64,000 nucleotides of DNA from Solidesulfovibrio magneticus RS-1. Its GTDB lineage: Bacteria > Desulfobacterota > Desulfovibrionia > Desulfovibrionales > Desulfovibrionaceae. Every line of letters starts with the position of its first letter. Position 1 is the stretch's first letter. The stretch is taken from the NCBI RefSeq assembly GCF_000010665.1, contig NC_012796.1:3873501-3937500 (forward strand), written 5' to 3'. A program made the position numbers and the translations under genes. The notes under the pieces were generated by a model. The model saw only the letters and a list, made by a program, of their open reading frames with translations, was not told the origin of the DNA and did no database searches. Below are positions 8,934-26,601 of this stretch, piece by piece.

Positions 8934-9040
8934 CATGGCGCAGACAAAAGAAAAAGGGGCCAGCTTTTCAGCTAACCCCTTGATTTCTTATGGTGCCGAG
9001 GGAGAGAATTGAACTCCCGACACGGGGATTTTCAGTCCCC
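8934..9040. repeat. left attachment repeat (tRNA-Phe 3' fragment plus terminator)
   Basis: Nearly identical to 26468-26575 (two substitutions and one T-run length difference, all in the outer part). Bases 8991-9040 equal the last 50 nucleotides of tRNA-Phe including CCA, on the minus strand; 8945-8979 repeats the tRNA terminator hairpin. The sequence then diverges abruptly at 9041. This marks one junction of the integrative element. The fragment lacks the tRNA 5' half and is not a functional tRNA. Confidence 0.93.
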
Positions 9041-9130: not shown

Positions 9131-9198
9131 TGTCCATCCCTCGTTTCACTGCAAAAGGATGGATAGGGGATGGACAACTTTTCGGGGGATGGACATGG
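9131..9198. repeat. integrase arm-type repeats, left end
   Basis: Four copies of a GGATGGAC-like word lie between the left junction and the integrase start: one inverted (9131-9140) and three direct (9157-9165, 9166-9177, 9184-9195). The same double motif recurs at 26442-26468 near the right end. Spaced short repeats at both ends of an element are the usual form of integrase arm sites. The last copy overlaps the integrase ribosome site, so integrase binding could repress its own gene. Confidence 0.6.
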
Positions 9199-10421
9199 CG
9201 ACGAAATGGCTTGGAACAAATTTCCCTGGTGTCCGGTTCCGCGAACATCCGACCCGCAAGCATGGTGTCCAGAAAGATAAGTATTTTGCCATCTATTATA
9301 AGGTGGACGGAAAGCGCCGGGAAGAATCGCTGGGATGGGCAAGCCAGGGCATGAGCGCCGCCAAGGCGTCCCAGGTGTTAGCCAAACTCAAGGAAGCCGC
9401 CAGGACCGGCGAGGGGGCTACCAGCCTTGCCGAAAAGCGCAAGTTGGCTGAAGCCAAGCGCGAGGAAGAGCGCCAGCAGGAAGAAGCCCGCGCCCGGGAA
9501 AACATCACCTTCGCGGACTACTGTGCCAACGACTACCTCCCTCTGGCCCGCGTCACGAAAAAGCCCGAGTCCATCCGCAAGACCGAAGAGCACGTCAAGA
9601 ACTGGCTCGGCCCCGTAGTCGGTCGCCTGCCGCTCAAAAACATCCGCCAGATGCACATGCAGAAGGTGCTTTTGGCGATGGCAAACGCCGGCCGGTCACC
9701 CCGCTCCATCCAATACGTTTTCGCCACGTTCCGGGCCATCTGGAACCACGCCCGCAACAACGGCTTCGTCCAGGTTCAAAGCCCGACCAAAGGCGTGGCC
9801 CTGCCCAAGGTGAACAATGAGCGCAAGCGGTATCTGAGCCGGCCCGAGGCAGACGCCCTGCTGGCCGAACTCGCTACCCGCAGCCCGCAGACACATGACC
9901 TCGCCTTGCTGTCCCTGGACACTGGTATGCGCTTCTCTGAGGTCACGGGCCTGACCTGGGGGTGCGTGGACCTGGACAAGGGACGAATCGACATCCTCAA
10001 CGCCAAGGGCGAAAAGGACCGCGCCATCCCCATGACCGCCAGGGTCAAGGAGCTTTTCGAGTCCATGACGCCGGGCGCGTCCAACGAACTGATTTTCAAG
10101 AGTCGCGTGGGCGGGCAGATAGGCAAAATCTCCAAGTCCTTCGACCTTGCCGTGGAAAAGCTTGGCCTGAACAAAGACGTGGACGATCCCAAGCAGATTT
10201 TCAGCTTCCATTGCCTGCGCCATACCTGTGCAAGCTGGCTCATCGAGGCCGGGACCGACCTCTATGTGGTGCAAAAGACCCTAGGGCACTCCACGCCCGT
10301 GGTCACGCAGCGCTACAGCCACGTTGCCGACGCCTCCATAGCCAACGCCTTTCGGGCCATGGAAGCCGACACGGCCAAGGCCCAGCCCGGCAAGAAGGTG
10401 ATAAGCTTGGGTGATCGGTGA
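9195..10421 (+). CDS. tyrosine recombinase/integrase of the tRNA-Phe element
   Basis: 408 residues from the ATG at 9195, chosen because GGGGG lies six bases upstream; in-frame ATGs at 9159 and 9189 are possible. N-terminal arm-binding region (about 1-90), core-binding SAM-like domain (about 100-190, FADYCANDYLPLAR), and a catalytic domain with Arg near 244 (TGMRFSEVTGL), HxxR near 338 (HCLRHTCASWL), His near 364 (TLGHSTPVVTQ) and the nucleophile Tyr near 373 (QRYSHV). All catalytic residues are present. It cuts and rejoins DNA at the tRNA-Phe att sites. First gene inside the element, transcribed away from the junction. Confidence 0.95.
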   Translation: MATKWLGTNFPGVRFREHPTRKHGVQKDKYFAIYYKVDGKRREESLGWASQGMSAAKASQVLAKLKEAARTGEGATSLAEKRKLAEAKREEERQQEEARARENITFADYCANDYLPLARVTKKPESIRKTEEHVKNWLGPVVGRLPLKNIRQMHMQKVLLAMANAGRSPRSIQYVFATFRAIWNHARNNGFVQVQSPTKGVALPKVNNERKRYLSRPEADALLAELATRSPQTHDLALLSLDTGMRFSEVTGLTWGCVDLDKGRIDILNAKGEKDRAIPMTARVKELFESMTPGASNELIFKSRVGGQIGKISKSFDLAVEKLGLNKDVDDPKQIFSFHCLRHTCASWLIEAGTDLYVVQKTLGHSTPVVTQRYSHVADASIANAFRAMEADTAKAQPGKKVISLGDR

Positions 10422-10494: not shown

Positions 10495-11517
10495 ATGGCG
10501 CTAGTCATCAAGGGCATACTCGGGGAGAGCCGGGAGTATTACCGCAACCTCAAGCGGCAAAACGTCGGACGCCTCCTCATAAATCCAAGAGGCTCTCTAT
10601 ACCGCAAGAAGGAAGGGGAAAGCACCTTTGTCTATCTTCGGCGTCTAGAGAATGGAGCCACGCGGCATATCTACATCGGGCGGGAAGATTCACCCCATGC
10701 CGCCGTCACGACCCATGGCGTTGCCATGCACAGCAAGGCCGTAAGTGCTCTCCGTGAGGCCAAGGCCGGCATGAAGGAACTTGGGATGTCCAGCCAAGAA
10801 ATCAAGACCGAAGATTATTTCCCCGTCGTCCAGGAGCTATTCCAAACCATGGCCGACGCCGGCTTGTGGGACGAAGGCATGACGCTGGTCGGCTCCTGGT
10901 GCTTCAAGGTCTATCAGAACTACTGCGGCGTGGAGTTCTTCCCGGAGCGAACCCTTGACGTGGATTTTGCTATGCGCCTCCCCTACCGAGGTAAGAAGGT
11001 CAACCTGGGCGACATGCTCAAGAGTCTTGGCTTCGAGGAGGTCATAAACCATGCGGATGGGACGGTTTTTTACCGTAGCGGCGAACTGTCCGTGGAGTTC
11101 CTCAAGGACCGGGTAGGCGACGGACGGGCACGCGGCGGCGTGTACGAAGCCGACATTGGCATTGCCCCGGTTGCCGTGCCCTACATGCGTGTCCTGCTGA
11201 CCAACCCCATGGAGATCAAGGCCCGCGACCTCGGCCGGGTGGTGGTGCCGTCCATGGCCGCTTTCTTTCTCCACAAGCTGCTGGTGGCCTCGGAACGCCG
11301 GAAGGAAGACAAACGCGTCAAGGACTACCGACAAGTGGAAGCCATCGCCAAGGCCATCCTGGCCGATCCTGCCATGGTCGAAGACGTGCAGCGCATCGCG
11401 GGTGGCCTGCACAAGAAGTGGGTGAAGAAGCTTGTGACCTCGGCCATGAAGGGCGAAGCGATACTTGACGCCACAGGCGCGGTCTTGCGTCGGGCGGGAA
11501 TCGTCGAGACGGCATAG
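10495..11517 (+). CDS. nucleotidyltransferase-fold protein (possible defence or toxin enzyme)
   Basis: 340 residues, ATG after GGGGAGAAC. Residues about 128-157 carry the nucleotidyltransferase signature: LVGSWCFKVY, then TLDVDFAM with the paired acidic residues, and a third acidic strand LSVEFLKDR near 197. This layout matches GSxx-type nucleotidyltransferases with an N-terminal helical region and a C-terminal helical bundle (residues 240-340). Members include AbiEii/MNT-like toxins and uncharacterized proteins on mobile elements. The gene lies next to the integrase with a 46-residue membrane protein 18 bases downstream. Enzymatic target unknown; a phage-defence role is inference from location only. 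Confidence 0.7.
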   Translation: MALVIKGILGESREYYRNLKRQNVGRLLINPRGSLYRKKEGESTFVYLRRLENGATRHIYIGREDSPHAAVTTHGVAMHSKAVSALREAKAGMKELGMSSQEIKTEDYFPVVQELFQTMADAGLWDEGMTLVGSWCFKVYQNYCGVEFFPERTLDVDFAMRLPYRGKKVNLGDMLKSLGFEEVINHADGTVFYRSGELSVEFLKDRVGDGRARGGVYEADIGIAPVAVPYMRVLLTNPMEIKARDLGRVVVPSMAAFFLHKLLVASERRKEDKRVKDYRQVEAIAKAILADPAMVEDVQRIAGGLHKKWVKKLVTSAMKGEAILDATGAVLRRAGIVETA

Positions 11518-14027: not shown

Positions 14028-14308
14028 GCCAAGAAGTCTACCTCGCCAACCCCATCGCGCCGGGAGCCGAGCAAACGCTAGAAACGCTGTTTTTACTCGA
14101 AACCTTCGGGGCCTTGACCACAGCGGAACTGCAAAAGTTCGGAATCGCCGCCCCGCAAGCCCGTGTCCATGACCTGCGCCACAAACACGGCTTCTTGGAG
14201 CGCATCAAGACCGAGATGGTCATGGTGCCGCACCATGACGGAAAGATTCACAGGCTAGGCCGCTATGTCCTCGTGGCGGCTACGGATGGCCTTGGAGGTG
14301 CGGCATGA
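14024..14308 (+). CDS. helix-turn-helix protein (HTH_39-like)
   Basis: 94 residues. The middle reads LETFGALTTAELQKFGIAAP and RVHDLRHKHGF, the arrangement of the phage HTH_39 family, in which the second helix-turn-helix repeat ends in DLR..G. It overlaps the PrimPol-helicase start by four bases (ATGA), so the two are made together. Such proteins often sit just before replication genes in phages and islands and may guide the replication protein to its origin. Confidence 0.7.
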   Translation: MSQEVYLANPIAPGAEQTLETLFLLETFGALTTAELQKFGIAAPQARVHDLRHKHGFLERIKTEMVMVPHHDGKIHRLGRYVLVAATDGLGGAA

Positions 14309-17046
14309 TCGTTAAAACCCACACTGCGGTCTTCCGCTCCACCGTTCCCGGCCGCCTGTCCAAACGGTTCGACAAATCACCGGACGGGGGGCTTGAGAAA
14401 CAGCCCGGTGGGCAACTGGTCCAGGGAACCTACCAACCCATCGCCGTCGAGGGGCCTGCTGCCATGGTAGACTTGCTCGGCAAGCTGCAAGGAAGCGATG
14501 CCATGTGCTTCGGGACAGCCGGCGGCGGCAAGCGGCCCATCTACAGCCGGGACGCCGCGCCTGACGCCGATGCCCTGACGCGGACTAAGGACCGCTTCGA
14601 CTGGCCCGAAGGCCCGGGCGTCATGCTTCTGGACAACGACATCGACCCGCGCCCCGGGGCGCTCCAGTTCGACATGGACGGCTTCCGCGCCGCCTTGCTG
14701 CGAGCCTGCCCGGGGCTTGGCGAAGCGCCTGCGGTCTTTGCGCATAGCGCGTCGAGCTTCATCTACGACACCGACACGGATCGCTGCTTAAAGGGCGAAG
14801 GCGGCCACCACGCCTACGTGTTCGTGAAGGACGCCAGGGACATCCCCCGCGCAGGGAAAGTCTTGGCGGATCGCATCTGGCTCGCTGGCCTTGGCTACTG
14901 CATCGTCGGCAAGGACGGCAAAATCCTCGACCGCTGCTTGATCGACACGTCGGTATGGCAGCCGTCGCGGCTGTGCTTCAGCGCCGGTGCGTCTTGCGGG
15001 GGCGGGCTTGAGCAGCGCCGCCCCCAGCCGGCGGTCATCAACCCCGACGCCACGCCGCTGGACACGAAAGCCCGGCTGCCCGAATTGAGCGCTGAGGAGA
15101 AGACCGAGGTGGCCCGACTCAAGGCCGAGGCCCGCAAGGAGGTCGAGGCGGAGGCGGCCGAGGTCAGAAGGCTGTATGTCGCGTCCCGGATCGCCGAGTA
15201 CCGGGCGCGTCCAGGAGCGGCGTCAGAAGAGGACGTGCCCGACGCGGTGCTCGAACGGCAATTCCGCCGGGCGGTCGAAGATAACGAGCTGTTCTCGGAC
15301 TTCCTCCTCCACTGCCAGGGCGGCGACACCATAACCGTGGGGGAGGTTCTTCGGGACCGGGAGAAGTGGGATGGTGCCCGCTTCTGCCATCCGACCGAGC
15401 CGACTTACGGCAATGACGACCGCATCGCCTGGGCGGACCTGCGCCCTGGGCGTCCGCCGACCATACACAGCTTCGCCCATGGCGGGTGCGTTTTCCGGCT
15501 CTTCCCGTACCAAGAGATTGCCCGGCTTCAGGACGGGGGACTGCCGGCTGTCGTCGAGCAAGCTGAACGGGTGCTCGCCAGGGATGGCGAAACCTTCCAG
15601 CGTGCCGGATTGTTGGTGCGCGTTGTCGGCGGCATGGCGGTTCAGCTCAAACCCTCTGTTCTCCGGAACAGCCTCGAGAAGCTGCTCCGGTTCGAAAAAT
15701 GGAGCGGCACACACAAGAGGTACGTGGCCAAGGACTGCCCCGACGAGGTTTCCCGCCGGTTAATAGAAGGGCATGGCACATGGCGATACGTCCAGGAGCT
15801 TCATGGCGTCGTGCGCGGACCTATCCTGCGGCCGGACGGCACGGCCTTGGCGAGCGCCGGGCATGATGAAGCGACTGGATTGTTGATCACCGGGGATGAC
15901 CAGGAGTGGCCGACCATTCCGGCGAAGCCGACGCGGGACCAAGTGCGGACTGCACTGGCGGAACTGCTCGAGCCTTTTGGGCTTTACAAATTCGCCAGCC
16001 CGTTGGACGCGGCGGCGTGCCTGTGCCTGCTGTTGACCGCCGTGCAACGCCCGATCCTGCCGACCGCGCCGGGCTTTATCGTCGAGGCTTCCACCCCAGG
16101 GACCGGCAAAACCAAGCTGGCCCAAGCCGTTGGCTGGCTTGGAGGCGCGGCAGTCCCGGCGTCCCCGTGGGCTGACAATGCCGAAGAGCAGCGAAAAAAC
16201 CTCGTCGCGGCGCTGCGCGGGGCCCCCCATACGCTGCTCTTTGACAACATAGACCGGCCCCTCGGAGGGGCGGCTCTCGCCGCCGTCTTGACCGGCAGCA
16301 CTTTCGAGGACCGGCTGCTCGGCGCGTCGGACAGGGTGACCGTACCGACGAACACCGTCCTCATCTTCAGCGCGAATAATCCGGAAGTCTTGGACGACGT
16401 GAACCGCAGGCTACTGCGTATCAGGATTGAGCCCGGCTGCGAGAACCCGCATGAGCGACCTTTTCCGTTCGATCCTGTGGCGCGAGTGCGTGAAAGGTGG
16501 CTTGCGCTGCGTGTTGCCGCGTTGACGGTCATGCGGGGCTTTTACGCAGCCGGAGCCCCGCGACAGGAGGGCAAGGCAGTCGGCTCTTACGAAGAATGGG
16601 ACAACATGATCAGGCAATGCGTCTGCTGGATCAATAACGATGGGCTTTGTGAATGGGGCCTCGACGACCCGGCCAAGTGCATCGAAGCAAATTGGGCGGC
16701 CGATGCGGGAACCCGGCGGCTCGGGACTGTTTTGAAGGCCTGCCGCGTCCTCTTTGGCGACGCCTCGTTCAAGGCGAGCGACATCATTAGTCCCACGGGC
16801 TCGTTCGATAGCGACGAAGCGGCGGAGACCGGAGAGACAACTGCAGACGAGGAAGCCGTAGAAGCAAAAAAGGCGCTTCATGCAGTCCTTCCCGAAATCG
16901 CTGCGGACATAAAGGGTGGGATCAACACGAAGCGTCTGGGGAAATGGCTGGGACGGAGCAGGGGGCGCATCGTCGAGGGCCTACGCTTTGAGTCTAGCGG
17001 GGTTTTGGACGGTTCGCAGGTCTGGGCGGTCAGACGCGCCGCGTGA
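14305..17046 (+). CDS. PrimPol-helicase replication protein
   Basis: 913 residues. The N-terminal region has archaeo-eukaryotic primase-like motifs: GVMLLDNDID (Asp pair near 112-115), GEGGHHAYVFVKD (His near 168) and LIDTSVWQPSRLCF (near 212). A charged helical linker covers about 255-330. The C-terminal motor has Walker A STPGTGKTKLA (near 595), Walker B LLFDNID (near 645), sensor LIFSANN (near 689) and an arginine-finger-like NRRLLRIRI (near 702), followed by a helical tail. Such fusions make primers and unwind DNA for autonomous replication of satellites and plasmids. Translationally coupled to the gene before it; a candidate origin follows its stop. The primase part is less certain than the ATPase. 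Confidence 0.85.
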   Translation: MIVKTHTAVFRSTVPGRLSKRFDKSPDGGLEKQPGGQLVQGTYQPIAVEGPAAMVDLLGKLQGSDAMCFGTAGGGKRPIYSRDAAPDADALTRTKDRFDWPEGPGVMLLDNDIDPRPGALQFDMDGFRAALLRACPGLGEAPAVFAHSASSFIYDTDTDRCLKGEGGHHAYVFVKDARDIPRAGKVLADRIWLAGLGYCIVGKDGKILDRCLIDTSVWQPSRLCFSAGASCGGGLEQRRPQPAVINPDATPLDTKARLPELSAEEKTEVARLKAEARKEVEAEAAEVRRLYVASRIAEYRARPGAASEEDVPDAVLERQFRRAVEDNELFSDFLLHCQGGDTITVGEVLRDREKWDGARFCHPTEPTYGNDDRIAWADLRPGRPPTIHSFAHGGCVFRLFPYQEIARLQDGGLPAVVEQAERVLARDGETFQRAGLLVRVVGGMAVQLKPSVLRNSLEKLLRFEKWSGTHKRYVAKDCPDEVSRRLIEGHGTWRYVQELHGVVRGPILRPDGTALASAGHDEATGLLITGDDQEWPTIPAKPTRDQVRTALAELLEPFGLYKFASPLDAAACLCLLLTAVQRPILPTAPGFIVEASTPGTGKTKLAQAVGWLGGAAVPASPWADNAEEQRKNLVAALRGAPHTLLFDNIDRPLGGAALAAVLTGSTFEDRLLGASDRVTVPTNTVLIFSANNPEVLDDVNRRLLRIRIEPGCENPHERPFPFDPVARVRERWLALRVAALTVMRGFYAAGAPRQEGKAVGSYEEWDNMIRQCVCWINNDGLCEWGLDDPAKCIEANWAADAGTRRLGTVLKACRVLFGDASFKASDIISPTGSFDSDEAAETGETTADEEAVEAKKALHAVLPEIAADIKGGINTKRLGKWLGRSRGRIVEGLRFESSGVLDGSQVWAVRRAA

Positions 17047-17054
17047 TCGCGAGA

Positions 17055-17167
17055 GGGGTTTAAGGGGTTTAAGGGGTTTGGTCCCTACGAGAAAAAGTAA
17101 AAACAAAATATGGTTTATGAAAAGAGGGAGGAAACTAACCCCTGAAATCCCTGAAACCCCTTGGCCC
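17055..17167. other. candidate replication origin of the element
   Basis: Starting nine bases after the replication gene are three tandem 9-mers (GGGGTTTAA twice, then GGGGTTTGG, 17055-17081). About 55 bases of A-rich DNA follow (17090-17136), then an inverted, imperfect version of the same word (CCCTGAAA/CCCTGAAACCCC, 17139-17160). Iterons flanking an easily melted stretch next to a PrimPol-helicase gene are the layout of satellite and plasmid origins. No functional proof. Confidence 0.5.
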
Positions 17168-17233
17168 CACCATATGCTTCCAACGCCATGCCGCCGCCTC
17201 AATTGGCGCGGCCAGATAGGAGAAAAAATCTAA

Positions 17234-17632: not shown

Positions 17633-17645
17633 GGAGGTATCTAAA

Positions 17646-18403: not shown

Positions 18404-18447
18404 CCGCCCGCTGCCCAAGCTGGGAGAAAACCGCCTTGGAGGTAACC

Positions 18448-18723
18448 ATGGCTACACGTCTGGAACAACGATTGACCGCAATTGAGGCCGCCTCCAAGCC
18501 CCGCACCGACCGCTGGGGCGTAGACTGTCTCTTTGGTACGAAGGACGGCCGTTGGTACGCCGCCGGGGCGTTGCATGATTCAAGGGAAGCCGCCCTTGCC
18601 GCCGTGAGGGCAGACGTGCTGCTCATGCTCAACGGACCGATCAGCCCGGAAGGCTTCATCGCCGCGCTCATCAAGTGCAACGACGTGCGCCCCGAAGTCC
18701 TGGACCAGCTTTTTGCGGATTGA
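18448..18723 (+). CDS. small protein, second of a paralogous pair
   Basis: 91 residues from the ATG at 18448, six bases after GGAGG; an upstream TTG at 18436 overlaps that site and is unlikely. It shares with the preceding gene the blocks QRLTAIEAASKP, DGRWYAAGALHDSREAA and DVRPEVLDQLF. The pair is likely part of the same transcript, which ends in the terminator at 18824-18863. Confidence 0.65.
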   Translation: MATRLEQRLTAIEAASKPRTDRWGVDCLFGTKDGRWYAAGALHDSREAALAAVRADVLLMLNGPISPEGFIAALIKCNDVRPEVLDQLFAD

Positions 18724-18823
18724 AACTGCGCCCGCCCGCGCCGAGGCCCCGTCCGCGCCGCACTGGCCGGGCGTCGGCCAAAGCAGAGATCGGAGATGAC
18801 CCGCACAGGCACACAGCGAGCAA

Positions 18824-18863
18824 AAGAAAGGGGTGCCCACGAAAATGGACGCCCCTTTCTTTA
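18824..18863. terminator. bidirectional terminator between convergent element genes
   Basis: AAAGAAAGGGG pairs with CCCCTTTCTTT, with further pairs inside (GCCCA with TGG-C). The hairpin has A-rich and T-rich ends, so it works for the plus-strand module and the minus-strand gene at 18889. Confidence 0.75.
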
Positions 18864-18888
18864 ACTATTCACGGACTGATTATTGCTG

Positions 18889-19314
18889 CTACTTCGTTGT
18901 CTTGCCAGTTGATATGCTCAATAAATTCCCTTCTATATCCAGATTGTACCTCACCGTCTTAAAACAATATCTCGGAGAATTGTCGCTGTACGAACGGTAA
19001 ATGGTCCCTCCGCAAGCGTGTACAAAATCTGATCGGTCGTCGTCGGAGAATGTTACAAGAGCTATATTTGTTCCCGAGCATTTCAAGCAACTTGGTTTAG
19101 ACTTTCTCTTCTCTTTAAATTCATTGCCAAACGCATCATCGCCAAAGTCTTCGATTTTAGTGAGACTATTGCAATCAAAGCACCAGCCAAGGGCTGGGTA
19201 CGATTCGATCGTCGCGCCGTCTCCCAGTTGATAAACCAGCGAGAACGGCATGGGCAGCGTTATTCCTCTGTAGTCGCAGCCGTCGCACTGATAGCGGGGG
19301 AGTGGCCAAGACAT
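18889..19314 (-). CDS. Cys-rich zinc-ribbon-like hypothetical protein
   Basis: About 141 residues from the ATG at 19314, preceded by GGAGG six bases upstream. Paired cysteines at CDGC (near residue 10), CFDC (near 46) and CLKC (near 75) suggest one or two zinc-binding ribbons; the C-terminal half is polar with short beta-like segments. AT-richer than the replication module, so probably separate cargo. It faces the plus-strand module across a shared terminator. No enzymatic motif seen. Confidence 0.6.
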   Translation of the reverse strand: MSWPLPRYQCDGCDYRGITLPMPFSLVYQLGDGATIESYPALGWCFDCNSLTKIEDFGDDAFGNEFKEKRKSKPSCLKCSGTNIALVTFSDDDRSDFVHACGGTIYRSYSDNSPRYCFKTVRYNLDIEGNLLSISTGKTTK

Positions 19315-20159
19315 TACGGGCCTCCATGGCAAATGGGGTTGGCAGCGCCAGGGTGAACACGGTCGCCTTCTTGATACCAAGCCCGGGGCGACCGTCAAGG
19401 ACGCGCTCCGTGCTCCCCCGGTCCAGACAACAGCCCGCCAGGGGTGTCGGCGCTACCTACCCCCTTCGCGACCTGTTTTACCCGGCCCCCGGTGGCCTGA
19501 TCCTCTACCCGCCCGACCCCTTCTTTTCCAAAACCTCCGATTCCGGAGGTTTGGCCAACGTCGCGCCCCAGCCGCACGCTCCAGATTGCCCCAGGCTGGG
19601 TTTTTCGCCCGCGCCCCATAGTTTGCATCGCCTCGACGGCGAAAACGCAACCTCGGGCCATTTTGACGCCATATCGACCATTCGTGGCACTTGTGGCGTC
19701 TCAAAACCCTTTTCATGCTCCGGAACCGGGCACGAAATAGCGTCGGCGATGCCGACGGTAATCCTACAGCCCGGAATCGTTGCTGGGCAAAGTTCAAGAT
19801 TCTGAACATTGGAGGGTGTCCATGGACATGGGCGCCCTCACACCCTAAGCTCGACCTTGCCGGGCGCTTGTGCGGCCCGGCTGGGCTTGGCCAAGGGGCC
19901 GGGCATTGGCCAGACCCCTGGCTGGTGTCGGAGATGCCGACGCCAGCGCCGGCCCTTTCGCAGACGCAGGTCAGCGCGACCGGGCCAGTTATGGGTTCAG
20001 AAACGTGAACTCAAAAAGGTCTGAAACAGGACCGTAATCCGCGCCACAGCCGGCAAGGCTACTGGGCCACGTCCAGACAGTGGGTAACTTCTGAAAACGG
20101 GGAAATCTATTCCGGCTACTACATCGATCATCCCTAAGGTGTTAACTTCCTGGAAATCG
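19315..20159. other. gene-poor stretch with relics
   Basis: Open frames on both strands lack ribosome sites. The stretch contains a CCTCCG/CGGAGG hairpin (19531-19552) repeated at 25938-25961, and at 20054-20079 a piece matching the 3' end of the small gene at 21239-21451. It reads as decayed element sequence. Confidence 0.5.
20054..20079. repeat. short direct repeat left of the EVE-HNH gene (partner 21252-21277)
   Basis: The word CAAGGCT-CTGGGCCACGT-CCAGA recurs with two mismatches at 21252-21277, where it is the 3' end of a small gene. The two copies bracket the AT-rich segment holding the EVE-HNH gene, as if that segment had been inserted into an array of small genes. Confidence 0.6.
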
Positions 20160-21113
20160 CTATAGGAAGACGTTGGCACGATGGTAAGCAAGGTAGTCTG
20201 CCTGTTTCTTGGAGAACCGCCCGACATTGAGAAGTTGCCCAGAGTCAATGCCAAGCCTCATTAGTTGATCTGCTGCGATGCGAGCAGAGACCAGTAGGTC
20301 GCCGTTGTCATTGAATCCGATCAGTCCTCTGTCAAAGAGGTGGTCAATGGTAGGGGTCAAAAGTAACCCGTTGTAGCCATCTAGACGCTCCTCATTAGAT
20401 GCACAGGAACGCCATGGTTTAATGTGGCTCGCTTTAAGCAGTTTACTATCTGTGACACCAGTTATCCTACACCCAGGCTCGATAGACTCCAAGTTTTTCC
20501 TGAATCTTCCTTGCCCCTTGCGAGCCTTTACCAGGGCCTCCTTCTCGGTACTGTCGATTGAAGTGCTGATACGGATAATCTTCTCAATTGCATCATCTAC
20601 ACGTTGAATAGGGCCATCATCTTCAACTTGCCCTGCTGCAGCTTCTTTAACCTGCGGAGCTAAGTCGCCTATTTGCCGCATGAGAACATCGGCCATGCTA
20701 TCTGGCACAAGGGTAAGGTAGACCCCCTGCAGGCCATCTCCCGTATCTTTTTGGATGGGTGAGTACCGACCTGGTAAGTGTGGACGAAGTTCGTTGATGA
20801 GTTCCTTTGGCCGAAAAGGATTTGGTATCTTTGTCCATTTAACAGGGACGATCCACCCGTCTATATTCCAGGACTCTCCAGTAGAACCAAACTCATCTGG
20901 CTTTGGGCAAGACGCAGCAACTGCGGTGGCGATACCTAGATGTTGAATACGTGTGCTATAGTAGGAAAAGACGATGTCGCCAACCTGGATTTGCCGCATG
21001 GTATTGTAGAAGTAATTATTTCTACCGTCCTTTTTATACTTTGGAGACCAAAGATATCCACCTAATATCTCATGCTCGGCAGTTTGATTTTGGTTAACCC
21101 ACCAGTATGTCAT
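20160..21113 (-). CDS. EVE-HNH endonuclease, likely modification-dependent restriction enzyme
   Basis: 317 residues. Residues about 1-120 form an EVE (PUA-like) domain (YWWVNQNQTAEHEILGGYLW; QVGDIVFSYYS; HLGIATAV), which in related proteins flips out and reads modified cytosines. Residues about 205-290 are an HNH nuclease of the HNH_2 type: a Cys in CRITGV, the metal-site motif SHIKPW near 233, NGLLLTPTIDHLFD near 255-268. Two-domain EVE-HNH proteins such as VcaM4I cut DNA with modified bases, so this is probably a type IV-like anti-phage enzyme. Strongly AT-rich compared with its surroundings and bracketed by short direct repeats. No methyltransferase is adjacent, as expected for a type IV system. 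Confidence 0.85.
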   Translation of the reverse strand: MTYWWVNQNQTAEHEILGGYLWSPKYKKDGRNNYFYNTMRQIQVGDIVFSYYSTRIQHLGIATAVAASCPKPDEFGSTGESWNIDGWIVPVKWTKIPNPFRPKELINELRPHLPGRYSPIQKDTGDGLQGVYLTLVPDSMADVLMRQIGDLAPQVKEAAAGQVEDDGPIQRVDDAIEKIIRISTSIDSTEKEALVKARKGQGRFRKNLESIEPGCRITGVTDSKLLKASHIKPWRSCASNEERLDGYNGLLLTPTIDHLFDRGLIGFNDNGDLLVSARIAADQLMRLGIDSGQLLNVGRFSKKQADYLAYHRANVFL

Positions 21114-21238
21114 AGCCCCCCCTGCTTGGCCGACTCTATTTATCTTACTTCATGGATCTTAAGGCTTCAACCGAGTCCAAGTAAACAGTTAAGTAATCTA
21201 GTCGATTCACTCAGAACTGCTGTTAAAAACCAAGGGCT

Positions 21239-21451
21239 TCACAACCAACGACAAGGCTCCTGGGCCACGTCCAGATATTCGCCGACCAGCGCCAGCATGT
21301 CGTGCCAGGACGGCGCGTCCATGCCGCGCTGCCGCAGTTCCCGGGCGTGGTCCTCAAGGCCGGCTTTCCGCAGGGCGACGACGGCGGCAAGGTGCAGGTC
21401 GTACATGCTGGCGAACTGGCCGGGGCGCATGGGGAAGGTGGGCTTGGTCAT
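21239..21451 (-). CDS. small helical protein, paralogue of 22656-22862
   Basis: 70 residues from the ATG at 21451 (MTKP). Shared pattern with its paralogue: hydrophobic AAVVALRKAGL, ARELRQRG, a Trp, and LALVGEYLDV. Its ATG overlaps the stop of the 29-codon frame before it (ATGA). Probably a small soluble helical protein; no family recognized. Confidence 0.6.
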   Translation of the reverse strand: MTKPTFPMRPGQFASMYDLHLAAVVALRKAGLEDHARELRQRGMDAPSWHDMLALVGEYLDVAQEPCRWL

Positions 21452-21537
21452 GGTCGGGACCACCGCTTGCGGGCCATGACGGCCAAGCCGATCAGCATGA
21501 CGATGCCCTGGCAGAGGCAGGCAAATGCCCGGCGCAT
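21448..21537 (-). CDS. 29-residue membrane mini-protein
   Basis: A 29-codon frame whose ATG shares a base with the previous stop (TGATG) and whose TGA overlaps the next ATG. The sequence has one hydrophobic run (GIVMLIGLAVMA) with basic ends, fitting a single membrane helix. The exact coupling on both sides is the main evidence for translation. Function unknown. Confidence 0.45.
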   Translation of the reverse strand: MRRAFACLCQGIVMLIGLAVMARKRWSRP

Positions 21538-21710
21538 CAATGCCATTGTGTCCGGTCGAGCAGGCCACGCCGACTGAGCTCACCTGCCTTGTGCCGGTCA
21601 AAGCGGAAGTCGCCGTGGACGCTACCTGGCTGGTGCTTGGCCTTCAAGACGAAGATCGGCACCAGGGCCATGACGGCCACGGCCAGGGCGGCGGTGATGA
21701 TCCATTCCAT
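21537..21710 (-). CDS. 57-residue membrane protein, paralogue of 22469-22651
   Basis: N-terminal membrane helix (MEWIITAALAVAVMALVPIF) followed by a polar tail ending GELSRRGLLDRTQWH. The paralogue at 22469-22651 ends GELDKRGLIDRTKWH. The conserved charged C-terminus after a single-pass helix suggests a shared cytoplasmic interaction site. First gene of a coupled three-gene set. Ribosome site weak. Confidence 0.55.
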   Translation of the reverse strand: MEWIITAALAVAVMALVPIFVLKAKHQPGSVHGDFRFDRHKAGELSRRGLLDRTQWH

Positions 21711-21762
21711 GGAGGTGGCTGGTAGCAGGCAGGGACCGGGCTTGTCATCCTGCCAGGGTATG

Positions 21763-21814
21763 AAAACCCCGACCGACGCGGAGGGCAGCCACGCCGGCCG
21801 GGGGCACTTCTTAC
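21763..21814. repeat. 52-bp perfect direct repeat, copy 1 (copy 2 at 22910-22961)
   Basis: Identical over 52 bases to 22910-22961; looser similarity spans about 21722-21868 and 22871-23011. Each copy sits just upstream, on the minus strand, of one microprotein cassette. On that strand it contains a GC-rich imperfect hairpin followed by TTTT, so it may act as a leader terminator or shared control region. Confidence 0.85.
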
Positions 21815-21897
21815 GACAACGACGAGGGGCGAAATAGCACGAGCTTGCGGATCGCGTCCATGGGGTTGGCGCGGACTCTCAGCCTTCGCCCCACAGA

Positions 21898-22173
21898 TCA
21901 ATAAACCGGCGGGCGCGGCGGTGGCGGCGGCCCCATGGGCACGCACTCCCCAAAGCGCCAAGCCATGTACGGCGGGCAAAGCGGCGGCACACGAGGGTCA
22001 TTCGGCCAGCACCCACGTGGGCCCTCCCAGTGGTAGCCCATCGGGCAAGGCGGTGGACCACCCGGCCCAGGACCATAGCCAGGACCAGGAAAAGGTTGTG
22101 CAAGCCCCAAGCTTGCTGAGGAGCACACGATTGCAACCGACGCCAGGATCATCATGAAGACGCTGCGCGGCAT
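21898..22173 (-). CDS. exported Pro/Gly-rich small protein
   Basis: 91 residues, signal peptide about 1-25 (cleavage after GLAQ region). The mature part has GPGYGPGPGGPPPCPMGYHW, then CWPNDPRVPPLCPPYM, CVPMG and a Pro-rich tail PPPPPRPPVY: four cysteines probably in two disulphides. Likely periplasmic or surface-exposed. Placed between the two duplicated microprotein cassettes. Confidence 0.6.
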   Translation of the reverse strand: MPRSVFMMILASVAIVCSSASLGLAQPFPGPGYGPGPGGPPPCPMGYHWEGPRGCWPNDPRVPPLCPPYMAWRFGECVPMGPPPPPRPPVY

Positions 22174-22206
22174 GAGCGAACCCCCTTGCTGGTTGAGATG
22201 GTGACG

Positions 22207-22398
22207 CTACCCTATGAGCACTTCCACAAAAGTCATGATGTGCCGCACAGAGTCCTCGTCTGTTGTGGCGGACATCAACCTCGAATTTAACTCCATAGCG
22301 TTCGAATAATCGCCAGAGGCAAGTAATGCGTCCAGGGCATCGGACGCCAGCTGGTTCACATTTGATCCGTCAGCGACGCGCACAACGGTTTTTTCCAT
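22207..22398 (-). CDS. small hypothetical protein
   Basis: 63 residues, acidic and helical, with no cysteines (LASDALDALLASGDYSNAME; VRHIMTFVEVL). No ribosome site clearly visible. It lies between the Pro-rich exported protein and the second microprotein cassette. Function unknown. Confidence 0.45.
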   Translation of the reverse strand: MEKTVVRVADGSNVNQLASDALDALLASGDYSNAMELNSRLMSATTDEDSVRHIMTFVEVLIG

Positions 22399-22468
22399 GC
22401 TTGCGACGGTATCATATTGTCGAGGAGTCGCAAGGATGAGTTTGGATTTTGCCTGGACCTCGGCCCTA

Positions 22469-22651
22469 TCAATGCCACTTGGTCCGGTCGATCAAGCCGC
22501 GCTTGTCCAACTCCCCTTCCTTGTAGCCGTCAAAGTCGAAACGCCCGGCCACCGGTGGCGACCTCCTGCGCTTGGCTCGAAGGATCGTGACGGTCACAGC
22601 CGCGCCGAGGACGATTCCGGCGATGATGACGCCCATGCTGAAGAGGTCCAT
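22469..22651 (-). CDS. 60-residue membrane protein, paralogue of 21537-21710
   Basis: Start taken at the ATG at 22651, just after the preceding gene's stop. Membrane helix near residues 5-24 (MGVIIAGIVLGAAVTVTIL), then a basic stretch AKRRR and the conserved tail GELDKRGLIDRTKWH. In this copy the order is helical protein first, membrane protein second, the reverse of the other cassette. Confidence 0.55.
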   Translation of the reverse strand: MDLFSMGVIIAGIVLGAAVTVTILRAKRRRSPPVAGRFDFDGYKEGELDKRGLIDRTKWH

Positions 22652-22655
22652 GCAG

Positions 22656-22862
22656 CTATCCTCGAATGACGATGTCCAGGTCAACGTACTCGGCCACCAG
22701 CAGGAGCAAGGACCGCCAGCACGTCACGCCATGGCCACGGCGCAGCAGTTCCCGCGCCTGGGCGTTTTGCCCAGCCCGGCGAAGGACGGCAGCAGCCGCA
22801 AGGAGAAAACGCCGTTCGCGTTGGTCAGCATGAAGGCGGATCGCCAGAACTGGTTTGGTCAT
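22656..22862 (-). CDS. small helical protein, paralogue of 21239-21451
   Basis: 68 residues starting MTKP. Shares with its paralogue the order AAAAVLRRAGQ, ARELLRRG, a Trp and LLLVAEYVDL. First gene of the second microprotein cassette and directly downstream of the second copy of the 52-bp repeat. Function unknown. Confidence 0.6.
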   Translation of the reverse strand: MTKPVLAIRLHADQRERRFLLAAAAVLRRAGQNAQARELLRRGHGVTCWRSLLLLVAEYVDLDIVIRG

Positions 22863-22909
22863 GCTCCACGGTAGCAGGGCCGCGCTGTCATCGCCACCGT
22901 TGGGGAATA

Positions 22910-22961
22910 AAAACCCCGACCGACGCGGAGGGCAGCCACGCCGGCCGGGGGCACTTCTTAC
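22910..22961. repeat. 52-bp perfect direct repeat, copy 2
   Basis: See copy 1 at 21763-21814; it lies about 50 bases upstream of the gene at 22656-22862 on the minus strand. Confidence 0.85.
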
Positions 22962-23154
22962 AACAACGACGTGACCAGGATAGCATGGGCCTGCGGATCG
23001 CGTCCATGGGCCGTGCCACCTTGGTTCAGCGTACGTGCGTCCTCATCCTGGAGAAGCCTTCCGGGCAGATGGCGAAATGAATTTTTCGTAACTGGATTGG
23101 CAGAACGCTGCAATGTATTAAGCTGAGAAAATCTTACGTCAATCCGAGTGCTCT

Positions 23155-23589
23155 ATGCCAGTAATTAAACACGAGACATGTTCACATTGTAACAAACCAG
23201 CTTGGCATGAACAAGCCTGCTTTCATGACTTAGGTGACACATGTTGGATTTGTCGGGCTTGCGGAAATAGGCGAGAAGGTAAGCGCATATCTTTAGGCGA
23301 GAGACACGCAAGACCCCTCGGAAAAATACAAACTCGCAACGCATCATGTCCAGTTGAAATCATCAATATACACAATGAAGGCGCTAAACTGGAGATAGTA
23401 GAAGGCGGAAGCCTTCCTGTGCTGCCTTATGAACTAGTTTTGTTCAATGCAAAGCTACAGCCTTCAGGGCCACTTGGTGAATTTCGAAAAGCGAATGTTC
23501 GATGGATTGAAGGAGATACCATGGGAATATCCTTCAACACGCCTCTTTTTGAGTCTCCTGAAGAACTTGTTTGCGTCATCAAGCATTGA
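23155..23589 (+). CDS. zinc-ribbon/PilZ-like protein
   Basis: 144 residues. The N-terminal region has two cysteine pairs, CSHC (near residue 9) and CWICRAC (near 30), plus His and Cys in HEQACFH, suggesting a zinc ribbon. Residues about 60-144 resemble a PilZ domain: RNASCPVEIINIHNEGAKL, then a short insert and ANVRWIEGDTMGISF. PilZ domains bind cyclic di-GMP through an N-terminal RxxxR motif; that motif is not clear, so ligand binding is uncertain. AT-rich and the only plus-strand gene in the right half of the element. Confidence 0.6.
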   Translation: MPVIKHETCSHCNKPAWHEQACFHDLGDTCWICRACGNRREGKRISLGERHARPLGKIQTRNASCPVEIINIHNEGAKLEIVEGGSLPVLPYELVLFNAKLQPSGPLGEFRKANVRWIEGDTMGISFNTPLFESPEELVCVIKH

Positions 23590-23682
23590 AAGTGTCTATC
23601 CAAAGCCGGCGGGCGAGAAGAGCCAAGGCGACTGCGGTCGTTGAACAAAAAATTGAGCTGAGGTCCGTGGCTGGCGACGTTT

Positions 23683-24201
23683 TCAATACCCCTCCGAATG
23701 GCCTTGGTGGCGCTCCCAATTCTCCATATAGAGCCGCGCCAGTCCCTTATCCTTGATGACGAGAAGATTTTCCGCGTTCTTCTCCTCGGCGGCCTTCGTA
23801 AAGTTGAAACTCCCCGTCACCACCGTCTGGCCGTCAATCACCATCACCTTGTTGTGGGCGATCGCATGGGTTGCGTCGATATAGACCGGGATGCCCTCGT
23901 TTCTCAGGAACGTGGCCCCCGTGTACGTAGCCTTTCGCTGGCTCTTGTCCAGGATCGCTTCAACCTTCACCCCGCGCTTGGCCGCGTCCACCAGGGCTTT
24001 GGCAATCGGGGCGCTCGTGAAGCTGTAGGCCTGGACGTAGACGCTCTCCTTGGCCTGTCCGAGGGCGTCAACGATAGCCTGTTGACCGCCGCCCTTGGGG
24101 GAGAAGTAGACGCTGACGGGCGTGTCCTTCAGTGACAGGTCGTAGGCATAAGCCTCTGAACAGGCAAGAAGCAGACAGAACGTGATTAAAAGCCTTTTCA
24201 C
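23683..24201 (-). CDS. exported phospholipase D-family endonuclease (Nuc-like)
   Basis: 172 residues, signal peptide about 1-19. The single HKD motif of the family is present near residues 115-135 (AHNKVMVIDGQTVVTGSFNF), preceded by the strands VYVQAYSFTSAPIAKAL and GVKVEAILD. The length matches one-HKD Nuc enzymes, which dimerize to form the active site and cut DNA and RNA without metal. Relatives occur on IncN plasmid pKM101. Probably periplasmic. Last gene of a five-gene minus-strand operon of exported proteins. Confidence 0.88.
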   Translation of the reverse strand: MKRLLITFCLLLACSEAYAYDLSLKDTPVSVYFSPKGGGQQAIVDALGQAKESVYVQAYSFTSAPIAKALVDAAKRGVKVEAILDKSQRKATYTGATFLRNEGIPVYIDATHAIAHNKVMVIDGQTVVTGSFNFTKAAEEKNAENLLVIKDKGLARLYMENWERHQGHSEGY

Positions 24202-24210
24202 AGTACCCGC

Positions 24211-24489
24211 CTAAAATTTATATGTGCCAGCGTTCGGCATCAGGCCCCCGCCGACACCATCCTTGTTGTTGCCAAGGGTTTGGTCCAGCATAGGCTTGAG
24301 ATTGCTAAGTCCGCTGTCGTCTTTATCGGGTTTGTTGCTGCCGTAGCTAAGTCGTGGGGATGATTTATACCCCGACTTGTTTGAAGGCTGCGTGCTTTCC
24401 TTGGGGGCCTTGGAATCTGGTGCGTCCCCGGCAAAAGAAACACCTGAAAGCAGCAAAAGACCTACGGCTAATAGCATGGCGTTCTTCAC
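24211..24489 (-). CDS. exported low-complexity small protein
   Basis: 92 residues. The GTG start at 24489 is chosen because GGAGG lies five bases upstream. Signal peptide about 1-20 (LLAVGLLLLSGVSFAG). The mature part is polar and Ser/Lys/Asp/Gly-rich with no cysteines. It ends nine bases before the nuclease gene. No family recognized; perhaps a partner or inhibitor of the exported nucleases, which is inference. Confidence 0.6.
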   Translation of the reverse strand: MKNAMLLAVGLLLLSGVSFAGDAPDSKAPKESTQPSNKSGYKSSPRLSYGSNKPDKDDSGLSNLKPMLDQTLGNNKDGVGGGLMPNAGTYKF

Positions 24490-24548
24490 AAAAACCTCCG
24501 TCGGGATCACTTAGGGGTTAGCACGCGCCAACCCCTGGCCATGAAGTG

Positions 24549-24869
24549 CTACTTCTGCTTGGCGATGATCATATCCTTAATCTTGTCGTAGGTCGCGCCA
24601 GGGATGATCTTCTTGGACACAAGCTGATCTTTCTTGGCGTAGGGGCGGCCTTCGATGATCTTCTTGGAGTAGGCGTCGCCAATTCCGGGCAGGGTTTTCA
24701 ATTCCTCTTCGGTTGCCGAGTTAAGGTCAATCAGCGCGGCCTTGGCGGCAGGAGTTTCGACCTTTGCCGGGGCCGACGTGGCAGTGGTCGTCTTTTGCCC
24801 AGCAACAACAGGTTGCGCGAACAGACAAAGTGCCAGCAGTACGAGAGCGAGCAAGGAAATCCGTTTCAT
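24549..24869 (-). CDS. exported helix-hairpin-helix protein (ComEA-like)
   Basis: 106 residues from the ATG at 24869, preceded by CAGGAGG. Signal peptide about 1-24, then a Thr/Ala-rich linker and a helix-hairpin-helix domain: IDLNSATEEELKTLPGIGDA, with the GIG hairpin and following KKIIEGRPYAKKDQL. This is the DNA-binding domain of ComEA, which holds incoming DNA in the periplasm during transformation; free HhH proteins of this kind also occur alone. Here it sits between nuclease-type genes. Confidence 0.85.
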   Translation of the reverse strand: MKRISLLALVLLALCLFAQPVVAGQKTTTATSAPAKVETPAAKAALIDLNSATEEELKTLPGIGDAYSKKIIEGRPYAKKDQLVSKKIIPGATYDKIKDMIIAKQK

Positions 24870-24903
24870 GGATGCCTCCTGGTTGGGGTTCATGTCATTC
24901 CCT

Positions 24904-25176
24904 CTACTTCAAATTGTGCTGCGCCCGATAGGTCTTGACCATCTGGTCGGTTACGTCCTTGGGGAAGCAAAGCGGGGAGCGACCACCGGGCCGACCGTAG
25001 GCACTTCGGCCACCGCAGCTTCGGCCATTCTTCATGGTGTTGTACGGGCACGGGCAGTTGCCGGGGTAAGACTGGATCGACTCCTTGATGATGAGGTCGC
25101 GGACCTCGGCGTCAGTCGCGGCAAAGGAGAAGGCGGGGATGATTACCAAGGCGAGGATCAGAAGCATTCTCTTCAT
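24904..25176 (-). CDS. exported Cys-rich protein with conserved CPCPYN motif
   Basis: 90 residues from the ATG at 25176. Signal peptide about 1-19 (MLLILALVIIPAFSFA). Mature core: NCPCPYNTMKNGRSCGGRSA, then YGRPGGRSPLCF and DVTDQMVKTYR. From memory, related small proteins are found beside or fused to exported nucleases on mobile DNA. Four cysteines may form two disulphides. No catalytic assignment possible. Confidence 0.65.
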   Translation of the reverse strand: MKRMLLILALVIIPAFSFAATDAEVRDLIIKESIQSYPGNCPCPYNTMKNGRSCGGRSAYGRPGGRSPLCFPKDVTDQMVKTYRAQHNLK

Positions 25177-25201
25177 ATCTGCGCGCCGATGGTTATTGGC
25201 C

Positions 25202-25681
25202 CTATGGTGCCCACAATCCCTTCTTTTCATCTCGACATTGAAGTTCCCAGGCCTGCCAGCCGACGCATTCAGGCGTCCAACGATCCCGACAAAGGCGCAT
25301 TTTCACCGTGGCGAGGCAGGCCCGCGTGAGCACGTCGGCGATGTCCTCCTGACCGACAATTACCCGGGCGACCGGTTCCCCATCCTTACCGAGCCCCATG
25401 GGGAGCACCTCGGCCACGTCTCCCCACTGATGACACCATGAGGTCGTCCGCTTCATGGCATCGTCCCCTCCGGGTTGACCAGGGGCGGGCACGCGGATGG
25501 CGTAGAGCTTCACGCGCTCGACCTGGCCGTCAGGCCTGGCAATGTCGAGGGTTGCGCCATCCACCACTTGCACCACCTTACCCTGCCAGGAGTCGGTGGC
25601 AGTGGCTCTCCCAGGGGAGAACAGGACCACGAAGACCGCCAGGGCAACAAGAACCCCACCGTCACAGAATCGCATACCCAT
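25202..25681 (-). CDS. exported staphylococcal-nuclease-like protein
   Basis: About 159 residues from the ATG at 25681 (25675 equally possible); signal peptide to about residue 29. The OB-fold start WQGKVVQVVDGATLDIARPD and the ending EKKGLWAP are typical of thermonucleases. Where active enzymes have R-x-x-G-I-D-A-P-E, this protein has VKLYAIRVPAPG, so the acidic metal ligand and catalytic Glu look altered. It may be an inactive or specialized version. Several cysteines in the C-terminal half (CVGWQAWELQCRDE) suggest disulphides. First gene of the exported operon. Confidence 0.7.
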   Translation of the reverse strand: MGMRFCDGGVLVALAVFVVLFSPGRATATDSWQGKVVQVVDGATLDIARPDGQVERVKLYAIRVPAPGQPGGDDAMKRTTSWCHQWGDVAEVLPMGLGKDGEPVARVIVGQEDIADVLTRACLATVKMRLCRDRWTPECVGWQAWELQCRDEKKGLWAP

Positions 25682-25937
25682 CTCGCCTACCCATCGCTTG
25701 AGTGCAAAGACTATGTGGCCGTTTATGCCCAGCCCAGGGCGGCATGGCAACGGCTTATTGGCCCTGGAAAGCCGAGGGCCGTAGCGCCTCCCTTTGCAAA
25801 AAAGGCGCGGCGAAAACGGAGAAACGTCAACTATAAGAAATGAGGGTGGCGGGGCCACATTTGACCGGGATGGTTCAATGTTGCGTTTTCGTAAGATTGA
25901 GAATGAGCAGGATCATGCCCTTATGCCGGGGTACACC

Positions 25938-25961
25938 AAAACCTCCGATTTCGGAGGGTTT
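25938..25961. repeat. dispersed hairpin (partner 19530-19552)
   Basis: AAAACCTCCG, a 4-base loop and CGGAGGGTTT; nearly the same hairpin with the same CCA flank occurs at 19530-19552. Confidence 0.6.
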
Positions 25962-26104
25962 GCCGCCACCAAGATAAAAAGTGGGATTTCCCACCTTTTT
26001 TGCGACTGCCAGGATAATGCAGCCCGGGACTGCATTTCGGTGCCCGCAATCTTGCGGAGGCTGACCCGGCAGAACGAAAACACACATACCTGTGCTCTCC
26101 ACAA

Positions 26105-26122
26105 TTGACGATATATCGTCAA
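26105..26122. promoter_or_regulatory. 18-bp perfect palindrome, candidate operator
   Basis: TTGACGATATATCGTCAA reads the same on both strands. It stands alone in non-coding DNA; too short in loop to be a terminator, it has the form of a dimeric regulator's binding site. No adjacent promoter could be fixed. Confidence 0.5.
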
Positions 26123-26441
26123 ACATCTCTTGTGGCCTCTAGTTCCTGCTGGCTGGCTTTTTGTGGCAAATGTGACCATTGGCCCACTTGCAGGAATAAA
26201 GTCGCCCGGTGAGCCACCAGAAACGCCGGCCTAAACCAGTCCAAGGAACAAAGAGACCACCTCGTGGCTGGGGGAGGGCTGGCGGTCGTGGTCGGGACTG
26301 AGCACAATTTTATGCCGAGTGGGCCGTGGGTAAGCACGGCTGGGCGAGGGGAGGAGTGAATTGTCGGTCAACCCGCGATGGGGCGCTTCCCATCCCCGTG
26401 GGCCTGGGCTATTTTCACCTCACTTCATTCCCTTGCATAAT

Positions 26442-26468
26442 AAAAGGATGGACAGGAGATGGACAACC
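26442..26468. repeat. integrase arm-type repeats, right end
   Basis: Two direct copies of the GGATGGACA/GAGATGGACAA word, matching the pair at 9154-9178 in 24 of about 26 bases. Together with the left set they bracket the element. Confidence 0.6.
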
Positions 26469-26575
26469 ATGACGCACACAAAAGAAAAAGGGGCCAGCTT
26501 TTTCAGCTAACCCCTTGATTTCTTATGGTGCCGAGGGAGAGAATTGAACTCCCGACACGGGGATTTTCAGTCCCC
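26468..26575. repeat. right attachment repeat (inside the intact tRNA-Phe)
   Basis: Right copy of the junction repeat, matching 8934-9040. Its inner part contains the tRNA terminator and its outer 50 bases are the 3' half of the intact tRNA, so integration rebuilt the tRNA with element-borne sequence. Confidence 0.93.
26479..26514 (-). terminator. terminator of tRNA-Phe
   Basis: On the minus strand GGGGTTAGCT pairs with AGCTGGCCCC around a GAAAA loop, followed by TTTTTCTTTT. An equal hairpin is left behind at 8945-8979. Confidence 0.85.
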
Positions 26576-26601
26576 TGCTCTACCGACTGAGCTACCTCGG
26601 C
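26526..26601 (-). tRNA. tRNA-Phe (anticodon GAA)
   Basis: 76 nucleotides folding into a standard cloverleaf: acceptor GCCGAGG/CCTCGGC, D stem GCTC/GAGC, anticodon stem GGGGA/TCCCC with loop CTGAAAA (anticodon GAA), T loop TTCAATT, discriminator A and encoded CCA. It is the integration target of the element; the 3' 50 nucleotides are duplicated at 8991-9040. A promoter lies at 26617-26645 on the chromosomal side. Confidence 0.97.

Follow-up and report, generated by a model that had tools for sequence, protein, structure and literature searches.

Host Endonuclease I degrades the DNA of excluded phage T4. According to passages of PMC13190303, SNIPE is a membrane-bound nuclease that cuts phage DNA during injection, and its place is what separates self from foreign DNA. 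The DNases encoded by dns, dns2 and dns3 of Campylobacter are secreted, reside on integrated elements and are linked to the loss of transformation (passages of PMC10893306), and hotspots of P2-like prophages and P4-like satellites carry swappable defence cargo, once between the cI repressor and the integrase (passages of PMC9122126). Nucleases of the phospholipase D (PLD) family with a single HKD motif are represented by Nuc of plasmid pKM101 and NucT of Helicobacter pylori. Here we analysed a window of 64,000 nucleotides of Solidesulfovibrio magneticus RS-1 (NC_012796.1, positions 3,873,501 to 3,937,500), in which five open reading frames (ORFs) on the minus strand, at 23683-25681, form an operon that ends with a predicted nuclease of this last type.

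The likeness to Nuc and NucT lies in a single-HKD nuclease that shares their HxK(x)4D(x)6GSxN signature, Nuc (1byr) being the closest solved structure; here, however, the PLD gene closes an operon that also encodes a pseudo-SNase, optional CPCP (small Cys-rich), helix-hairpin-helix (HHH) and small proteins, and the settings are defence genes and viral contigs. With SNIPE the shared point would be the sorting of self and foreign DNA by place, at the envelope. SNIPE is described in those passages as one transmembrane protein with DUF4041 and a cytoplasmic GIY-YIG domain, whereas no Pfam match to either domain was obtained, up to E = 1, in any operon member. The Campylobacter DNases appear in the passages of PMC10893306 as single nuclease genes without a partner set, and in the main text of PMC9122126 the word "periplasm" is absent, and its passages present no exported nuclease set of this kind. 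In PADLOC-DB 2.0.0 the PLD protein matched PLD-type models only, mostly DrmC of DISARM (best 3.7e-15), and the other four operon proteins had no match up to E = 0.1. This similarity to DISARM is one of family, and the operon PLD looks exported; neither DrmA, DrmB nor any other DISARM gene was found in the flank proteins scanned singly or in the best 25 of 121 pooled families, the window flanks having been partly scanned. The sequence-only reading of this DNA knew of no described system with such a gene set, and the searches agree with it: PADLOC, Pfam, PHROGs and NCBIfam gave no model for the set as a system, and no matching system was found in the titles and abstract openings of the open-licence papers searched. 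The parts are of known kinds, and their combination and setting appear to be new.

The explanation that we prefer, with about as much belief as doubt, is that the operon is a mobile, modular, envelope-located nuclease cassette, which would degrade foreign DNA outside the cytoplasm, most likely that of superinfecting phages. Its observed basis is the gene set and its order, the mobility of the window copy, the PLD signature, the lost SNase motifs, the purifying selection on three genes and the defence and phage neighbourhoods. The five genes are the following, in operon order.

25202..25681 (alternative start 25675), minus strand: SNase-like exported protein, first gene, predicted catalytically dead; below the Pfam cut-off, motifs lost
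24904..25176, minus strand: CPCPYN small Cys-rich exported protein; phrog_27544 at 5e-25
24549..24893 (alternative start 24869), minus strand: ComEA-like exported helix-hairpin-helix protein; HHH_3 at 2.2e-11
24211..24510 (alternative start 24489), minus strand: small exported low-complexity protein; homologues at four other genus loci (L026, L028, L032 and L035)
23683..24201, minus strand: exported PLD-family endonuclease of Nuc type, last in the operon, predicted to be active; PLDc_2 at 1.6e-29, 1byr at 2.7e-31, signature intact

The gaps between them are, in the same order, of about 25, 10-34, 38-59 and 9 bp, the ranges depending on the choice of start, and a Sec-type signal peptide was judged by eye at the N terminus of all five proteins. 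The proposed one-direction operon of apparently exported proteins is in this way confirmed. The stretch 23400-26100 showed no promoter-like site, and no site resembling a terminator was found within the operon, which fits a single transcription unit without proving it.

The PLD protein is likely to be the catalyst and the nuclease of the operon. Besides the Pfam and structural matches given above, it matched phrog_12711 (7e-42; function unknown in PHROGs), and HxK(x)4D(x)6GSxN, as described for PLD nucleases in passages of PMC5714352, was intact in the window protein and in 13 other aligned sequences, all nine genus copies included. The ratio of nonsynonymous to synonymous substitution rates (dN/dS) of this gene was 0.11-0.19, with 7 of 45 pairs passing the filter on synonymous divergence (dS). 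The SNase-like protein was also proposed as a nuclease, and in this respect the proposal was rejected. Its score against Pfam SNase (PF00565) was 18.9 bits, under the cut-off of 21. The motifs DGD, DxPE and GR, which together with the Arg of VRL we take to be the catalytic positions of SNase, were lost in 8/8 full-length module copies and kept in 21/21 other aligned homologues. For this alignment 26 non-module loci were tried, 21 of which yielded a homologue, L118, L122 and L124 having no usable ORF; L015 and L025, which are module relatives in broken or partial form, were not counted. The protein appears to be under purifying selection, with dN/dS of 0.13-0.34 in 8 of the 9 usable pairs (9/28 passed the dS filter); the value of 0.68 was that of L028 against L032, and the 5′ end of L028 differs. 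Considering that the catalytic motifs were lost and the sequence nonetheless appears constrained, we read it as probably a non-catalytic partner.

The CPCPYN protein, whose phrog_27544 family is of function unknown in PHROGs, matched more weakly phrog_14503 (6e-6), which PHROGs lists with the phage morons as a membrane associated protein. Its family is without a Pfam or NCBIfam model, and neither this protein nor the small one gave any Pfam match up to E = 1. The structure model of CPCP reached a predicted local distance difference test score (pLDDT) of 82 and its best match in the PDB was only E = 3.3. The dN/dS values were 0.07-0.18 (10/36 pairs passed the dS filter). We compared 88 CPCP records, of which 14, corresponding to 11 distinct loci (12 with the window), had at least 74% identity to the protein of the window. 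In all 12 of these loci, window included, a predicted nuclease was located beside CPCP or in the same operon; ten were recognised by tblastn or Pfam and two, the Azospirillum loci, by eye, and these two resemble each other.

The ComEA-like protein proved to be a helix-hairpin-helix protein, by HHH_3 of Pfam and by 2duy (1.2e-9). Of the three nucleic-acid-related members proposed, this one has a predicted DNA-binding domain and the PLD is a likely active nuclease, but the SNase-like protein is probably not a nuclease. The HHH_3 domain and the similarity to ComEA would also suit a competence set for DNA uptake, in which the ComEA-like protein captures DNA, and in the genome of the window no short HHH_3 protein was found besides the two module copies, a third match being in a 729-residue frame, presumably Tex. 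However, the score against NCBIfam comEA (TIGR01259) was 36.1 bits, for a cut-off of 152.35, the gene is optional (3/9 genus copies), neither com nor pilus genes were recognised around it and captured DNA would be broken down by the nuclease, so that this explanation seems to us highly improbable. Uptake as the main role was rejected on the TIGR01259 score and the optional gene. DNA use or uptake, one of the two roles put forward in the sequence-only reading, has weak support: a ComEC-type protein is encoded elsewhere in the genome, but the ComEA-like gene is optional in the module and no competence gene was recognised around it.

Other copies in the genus were sought by a search with the SNase-like protein in 14 genomes and by a DNA search of the window's own genome; copies without the SNase-like gene may be missed, because the genus search used that protein. 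Gene calls were made by a simple longest-ORF script. An SNase-like match was present in 7/14 genus genomes, weak and partial ones counted, and besides the window there were eight copies with an intact PLD gene, nine in all. One of the genomes, G002, which has two module copies, is listed at 8% contamination. The order is kept in every copy, with the SNase-like gene first, PLD last and up to three optional genes between them. L026, L028 and L032 have SNase-CPCP-small-PLD; L030 has SNase-CPCP-ComEA-PLD; L005 has an SNase remnant and then CPCP-ComEA-PLD; and L006, L027 and L031 have SNase-PLD. The search for the five-gene order in other genomes thus gave a divided answer, as the complete set was seen in the window alone while the modular frame from SNase-like to PLD is kept, and the recurrence of ordered subsets in eight copies shows that the association in relatives is not random. 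In addition, L033 is a degraded pair, L035 has an SNase fragment and the small gene, and L029 (partial) and L034 (38% identical, catalytic motifs kept) have an SNase homologue without other module genes. In a survey of the class (348 genomes) a match at 1e-10 was present in 35, and identities of at least 60% were confined to this genus, probably Solidesulfovibrio. The decayed SNase-PLD pair of L033 (L033:7826-8754, genome G001) was seen by eye near an integrase-like ORF. L005, L026, L028, L030 and L032 share a set of flanking genes, composed of a ROS/MUCR regulator, short proteins and an XRE regulator; since this set travels with the five copies, a larger mobile unit is suggested.

This patchy distribution bears on the idea that the operon serves periplasmic scavenging, with extracellular DNA broken for nucleotides or phosphate. 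It would agree with the apparent export of all five members (by eye) and with the PLD relative NucT, which is implicated in purine salvage and natural transformation of H. pylori in passages of PMC5714352. Taking into account that an SNase-like match occurs in only half of the genus genomes, that the settings are a mobile island, defence genes and viral contigs, and that no phosphatase or nucleotidase was recognised in the flanks by eye, we consider scavenging quite unlikely.

Known or candidate defence genes were located within 4 kb of five of the eight other copies. L006 lies immediately upstream of brxA-brxB-brxC, and its opposite flank has an OLD-like gene. In L028 the operon comes after patatin effector, cyclase, E1-E2 and JAB genes, a type II CBASS-like set (L028:3717-7908), and the ATG of the SNase-like gene (7901) overlaps the stop of the last CBASS gene, cap3, by 8 nt. 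The operon of L030 follows an RT_UG10 gene, L031 adjoins PDC-S31, a brxA fragment and ZorA, and L027 adjoins PDC-S06. As a control we used 15 random 8 kb segments from the window's own genome, after dropping 1 of the 16 drawn, which overlapped L005. By locus, the 5/8 copies were compared with 1/15 random segments (Fisher, p = 0.009). At the level of proteins, matches to PADLOC at 1e-15 or better were given by at least 12/58 flank proteins and by 1/70 proteins of the random segments (Fisher, p = 0.0003); the 12 are proteins scanned singly and hence a minimum, the pooled scan covering the best 25 of 121 families. The control omitted ORFs cut by a segment end and the flanks kept ORFs reaching beyond 4 kb, therefore the comparison favours the flanks somewhat, and the p-values are only a guide because copies within one genus are related. 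BrxA matches were present in 3/14 genus genomes and next to the module in two, one of them a fragment. For the other role put forward in the sequence-only reading, the stopping of incoming phage DNA, the support lies in these neighbourhoods and in the viral contigs, and the function itself is predicted from sequence.

CPCP was found in 17 viral contigs. In L169 the order is repressor, CPCP, small protein, ComEA-like protein, PLD (52% identical), a 98-residue protein and an HNH protein, the last being 66% identical to the HNH_2 protein of the window (20160-21113). L170 has repressor, CPCP, Endonuclease I and the 98-residue protein, and L166 has an SNase above the Pfam cut-off, CPCP, a PLD that is 80% identical to that of the window, and the 98-residue protein. 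In L167 and L168 CPCP is paired with Endonuclease_NS (Pfam was run on L167). In both L169 and L170 a repressor with an S24 domain is encoded on the strand of CPCP and ends some 30-40 bp upstream of it, which makes expression of CPCP together with the repressor plausible. Genes for a portal, a head protease and a tape measure protein are present in the contig of L166; that the contigs of L169 and L170 come from phages is indicated by their IMG/VR assignment and their repressor, to which L169 adds an integrase. None of the three proteins tested from the L169 contig matched a PHROG, and one of the two tested from the L170 contig matched PHROGs of unknown function. The protein of about 98 residues that follows the nuclease gene (L166:4798-5094, L169:5735-6031 and L170:5058-5342) is conserved, with an N-terminal hydrophobic stretch; a tblastn search of the window and of ten Solidesulfovibrio loci gave no match to it. 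From these contexts a wider proposal may be drawn, which we hold tentatively and with more doubt than confidence: a new kind of periplasmic immunity against phages or other elements, in which CPCP would hold or divert the incoming DNA, the pseudo-SNase and the HHH protein would bind it, and its destruction would fall to one of several exchangeable exported nucleases (PLD, Endonuclease I, Endonuclease_NS or SNase). It would act as superinfection exclusion by temperate phages and would have been captured by defence islands beside CBASS, BREX, RT_UG10 and Zorya.

On plasmids the PLD family has another setting. A PLD homologue is present in at least 5000 plasmid records, and among the best 5000 there are 4273 with the type conjugative. 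Of the three contexts examined, one was beside traD, another among tra genes and the third neither. These data would be expected if the operon were a conjugation accessory like Nuc of pKM101, left as a relic of a conjugative plasmid or of an integrative and conjugative element. However, neither the window operon nor the other copies have a recognisable tra or mob gene nearby (by eye, with Pfam on six island genes), and the annotations of the plasmid contexts name no partner gene, the sequences there not having been searched. We regard a conjugative role as very unlikely. The SNase-like protein gave three weak matches on plasmids, and CPCP is present on two Xanthomonas plasmids, where no adjoining nuclease partner was recognised. 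In the phage collection CPCP gave three short, weak matches.

The operon of the window is cargo of an integrated element of about 17.5 kb at tRNA-Phe, with these features.

8934..9040, plus strand: left member of the direct repeat pair, an att-like copy of the end of tRNA-Phe, from repeat comparison
9159..10421, plus strand: tyrosine integrase, just inside the left repeat; Phage_integrase at 9e-31
10495..11517, plus strand: NTP_transf_8 nucleotidyltransferase, island backbone gene, from Pfam; related gene in G013
14305..17046, plus strand: AAA-domain protein of the island; AAA at 7e-5
20160..21113, minus strand: HNH_2 protein, possibly associated, from Pfam; PADLOC HNH at 1.9e-24
26468..26575, plus strand: right direct repeat, overlapping tRNA-Phe, from repeat comparison
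26526..26601, minus strand: tRNA-Phe, integration site, from the tRNA call

The direct repeats are 107-base, 97% identical, and include the end of tRNA-Phe, and the GC content is mostly lower within the island than in its flanks. The site was compared in 4 of the 14 genus genomes (G003, G006, G007 and G013). In G003 and G006 the left and right flanks meet at a single repeat copy, therefore the site is empty there; in G007 the match to the window was limited to the right side and the repeat. With att-like repeats, an integrase and an empty site in two relatives, the operon of the window belongs to a mobile element. G013 has a related integrase and nucleotidyltransferase at this tRNA; the cargo there differs, as judged by eye, and blastn gave no match to the operon. 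The tRNA-Phe site (window 8934-26575; L143) looks like a hotspot, with a related integrase/nucleotidyltransferase backbone and different cargo in another species. The HNH_2 protein, 2.6 kb downstream of the operon, is outside the five-of-eight defence count, and it gave a very weak EVE match (E 0.09).

The absence of this element from two relatives is also what could be expected if an exported DNase of a mobile element blocked natural transformation, so that homologous recombination could not delete the element, phage defence being incidental. Passages of PMC10893306 connect the dns DNases of phages with non-transformable C. jejuni, and the CPCP of viral contigs is paired with Endonuclease I and Endonuclease_NS as well. 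The ComEC-type protein of the genome could be counted in its favour too, but ComEC was present in 10/14 control genomes and no short ComEA-like protein was found beyond the two module copies in the window's genome. The siting directly beside BREX, CBASS, RT_UG10 and ZorA genes is not predicted by it. Phage exclusion is favoured over the transformation block because of the defence and repressor neighbourhoods; we consider the block unlikely, although it has a modest chance of being correct.

In the envelope nuclease cassette that we prefer, the exported Nuc-type PLD endonuclease would be the catalyst, and the dead SNase-related, Cys-rich CPCP and helix-hairpin-helix proteins would be its periplasmic partners, for DNA binding or targeting. 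Foreign DNA would be degraded before reaching the cytoplasm, most likely that of superinfecting phages and perhaps also transforming DNA, which would protect both the host and the carrier element. Export, complex formation, DNA cutting, target and benefit are what we infer from the observations above. Several points weigh against this explanation. It offers no account of the way in which a soluble nuclease of the periplasm could get at DNA within the phage tail channel. No defence gene was found within 4 kb of L005, L026 and L032 (the contig of the last ends 0.8 kb upstream), and defence islands also gather unrelated cargo. The Arg of the VRL motif is retained in 5/8 module copies, so the loss of SNase-like activity is a prediction only. 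The structure model of this protein was poor (pLDDT 52.6, three rows only); with it Foldseek gave no sensible match (best E-value 0.011), and the comparison with PDB sequences gave a single chance match (E 0.86). In viral contigs, 27 pattern matches to the SNase-like protein gave no confirmed relative. Conjugative plasmids very commonly carry PLD relatives, which may serve another role there. Finally, of the other 74 CPCP records, 58 were inspected and an exported nuclease was nearby in 4 only (L087, L046, L171 and L052, by Pfam families, with export judged by eye). Since the more distant relatives mostly stand alone, CPCP need not act with a nuclease, and the comparison of 12/12 close loci with 4/58 distant ones indicates that the nuclease partnership is a trait of the close CPCP clade and not of the whole family.

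If the proposal is correct, a modular set of exported nuclease genes that recurs in phage genomes, in an integrated island and in defence islands would turn the cutting of DNA before entry into a branch of immunity open to test. The nuclease-associated CPCPYN branch would gain a function, and a dead SNase a reason to stay under selection.

With regard to the wider CPCP family, in some Alphaproteobacteria (L092, L094, L097 and L098) CPCP forms the C-terminal domain of longer proteins of 170-228 residues, possibly with an SH3-like part, as judged by eye. In Acinetobacter (L054, L057, L060, L066, L067, L073 and L085) CPCP was seen, also by eye, at one chromosomal place, after a cysN-like gene, and considering this constant site the wider family may have another role.

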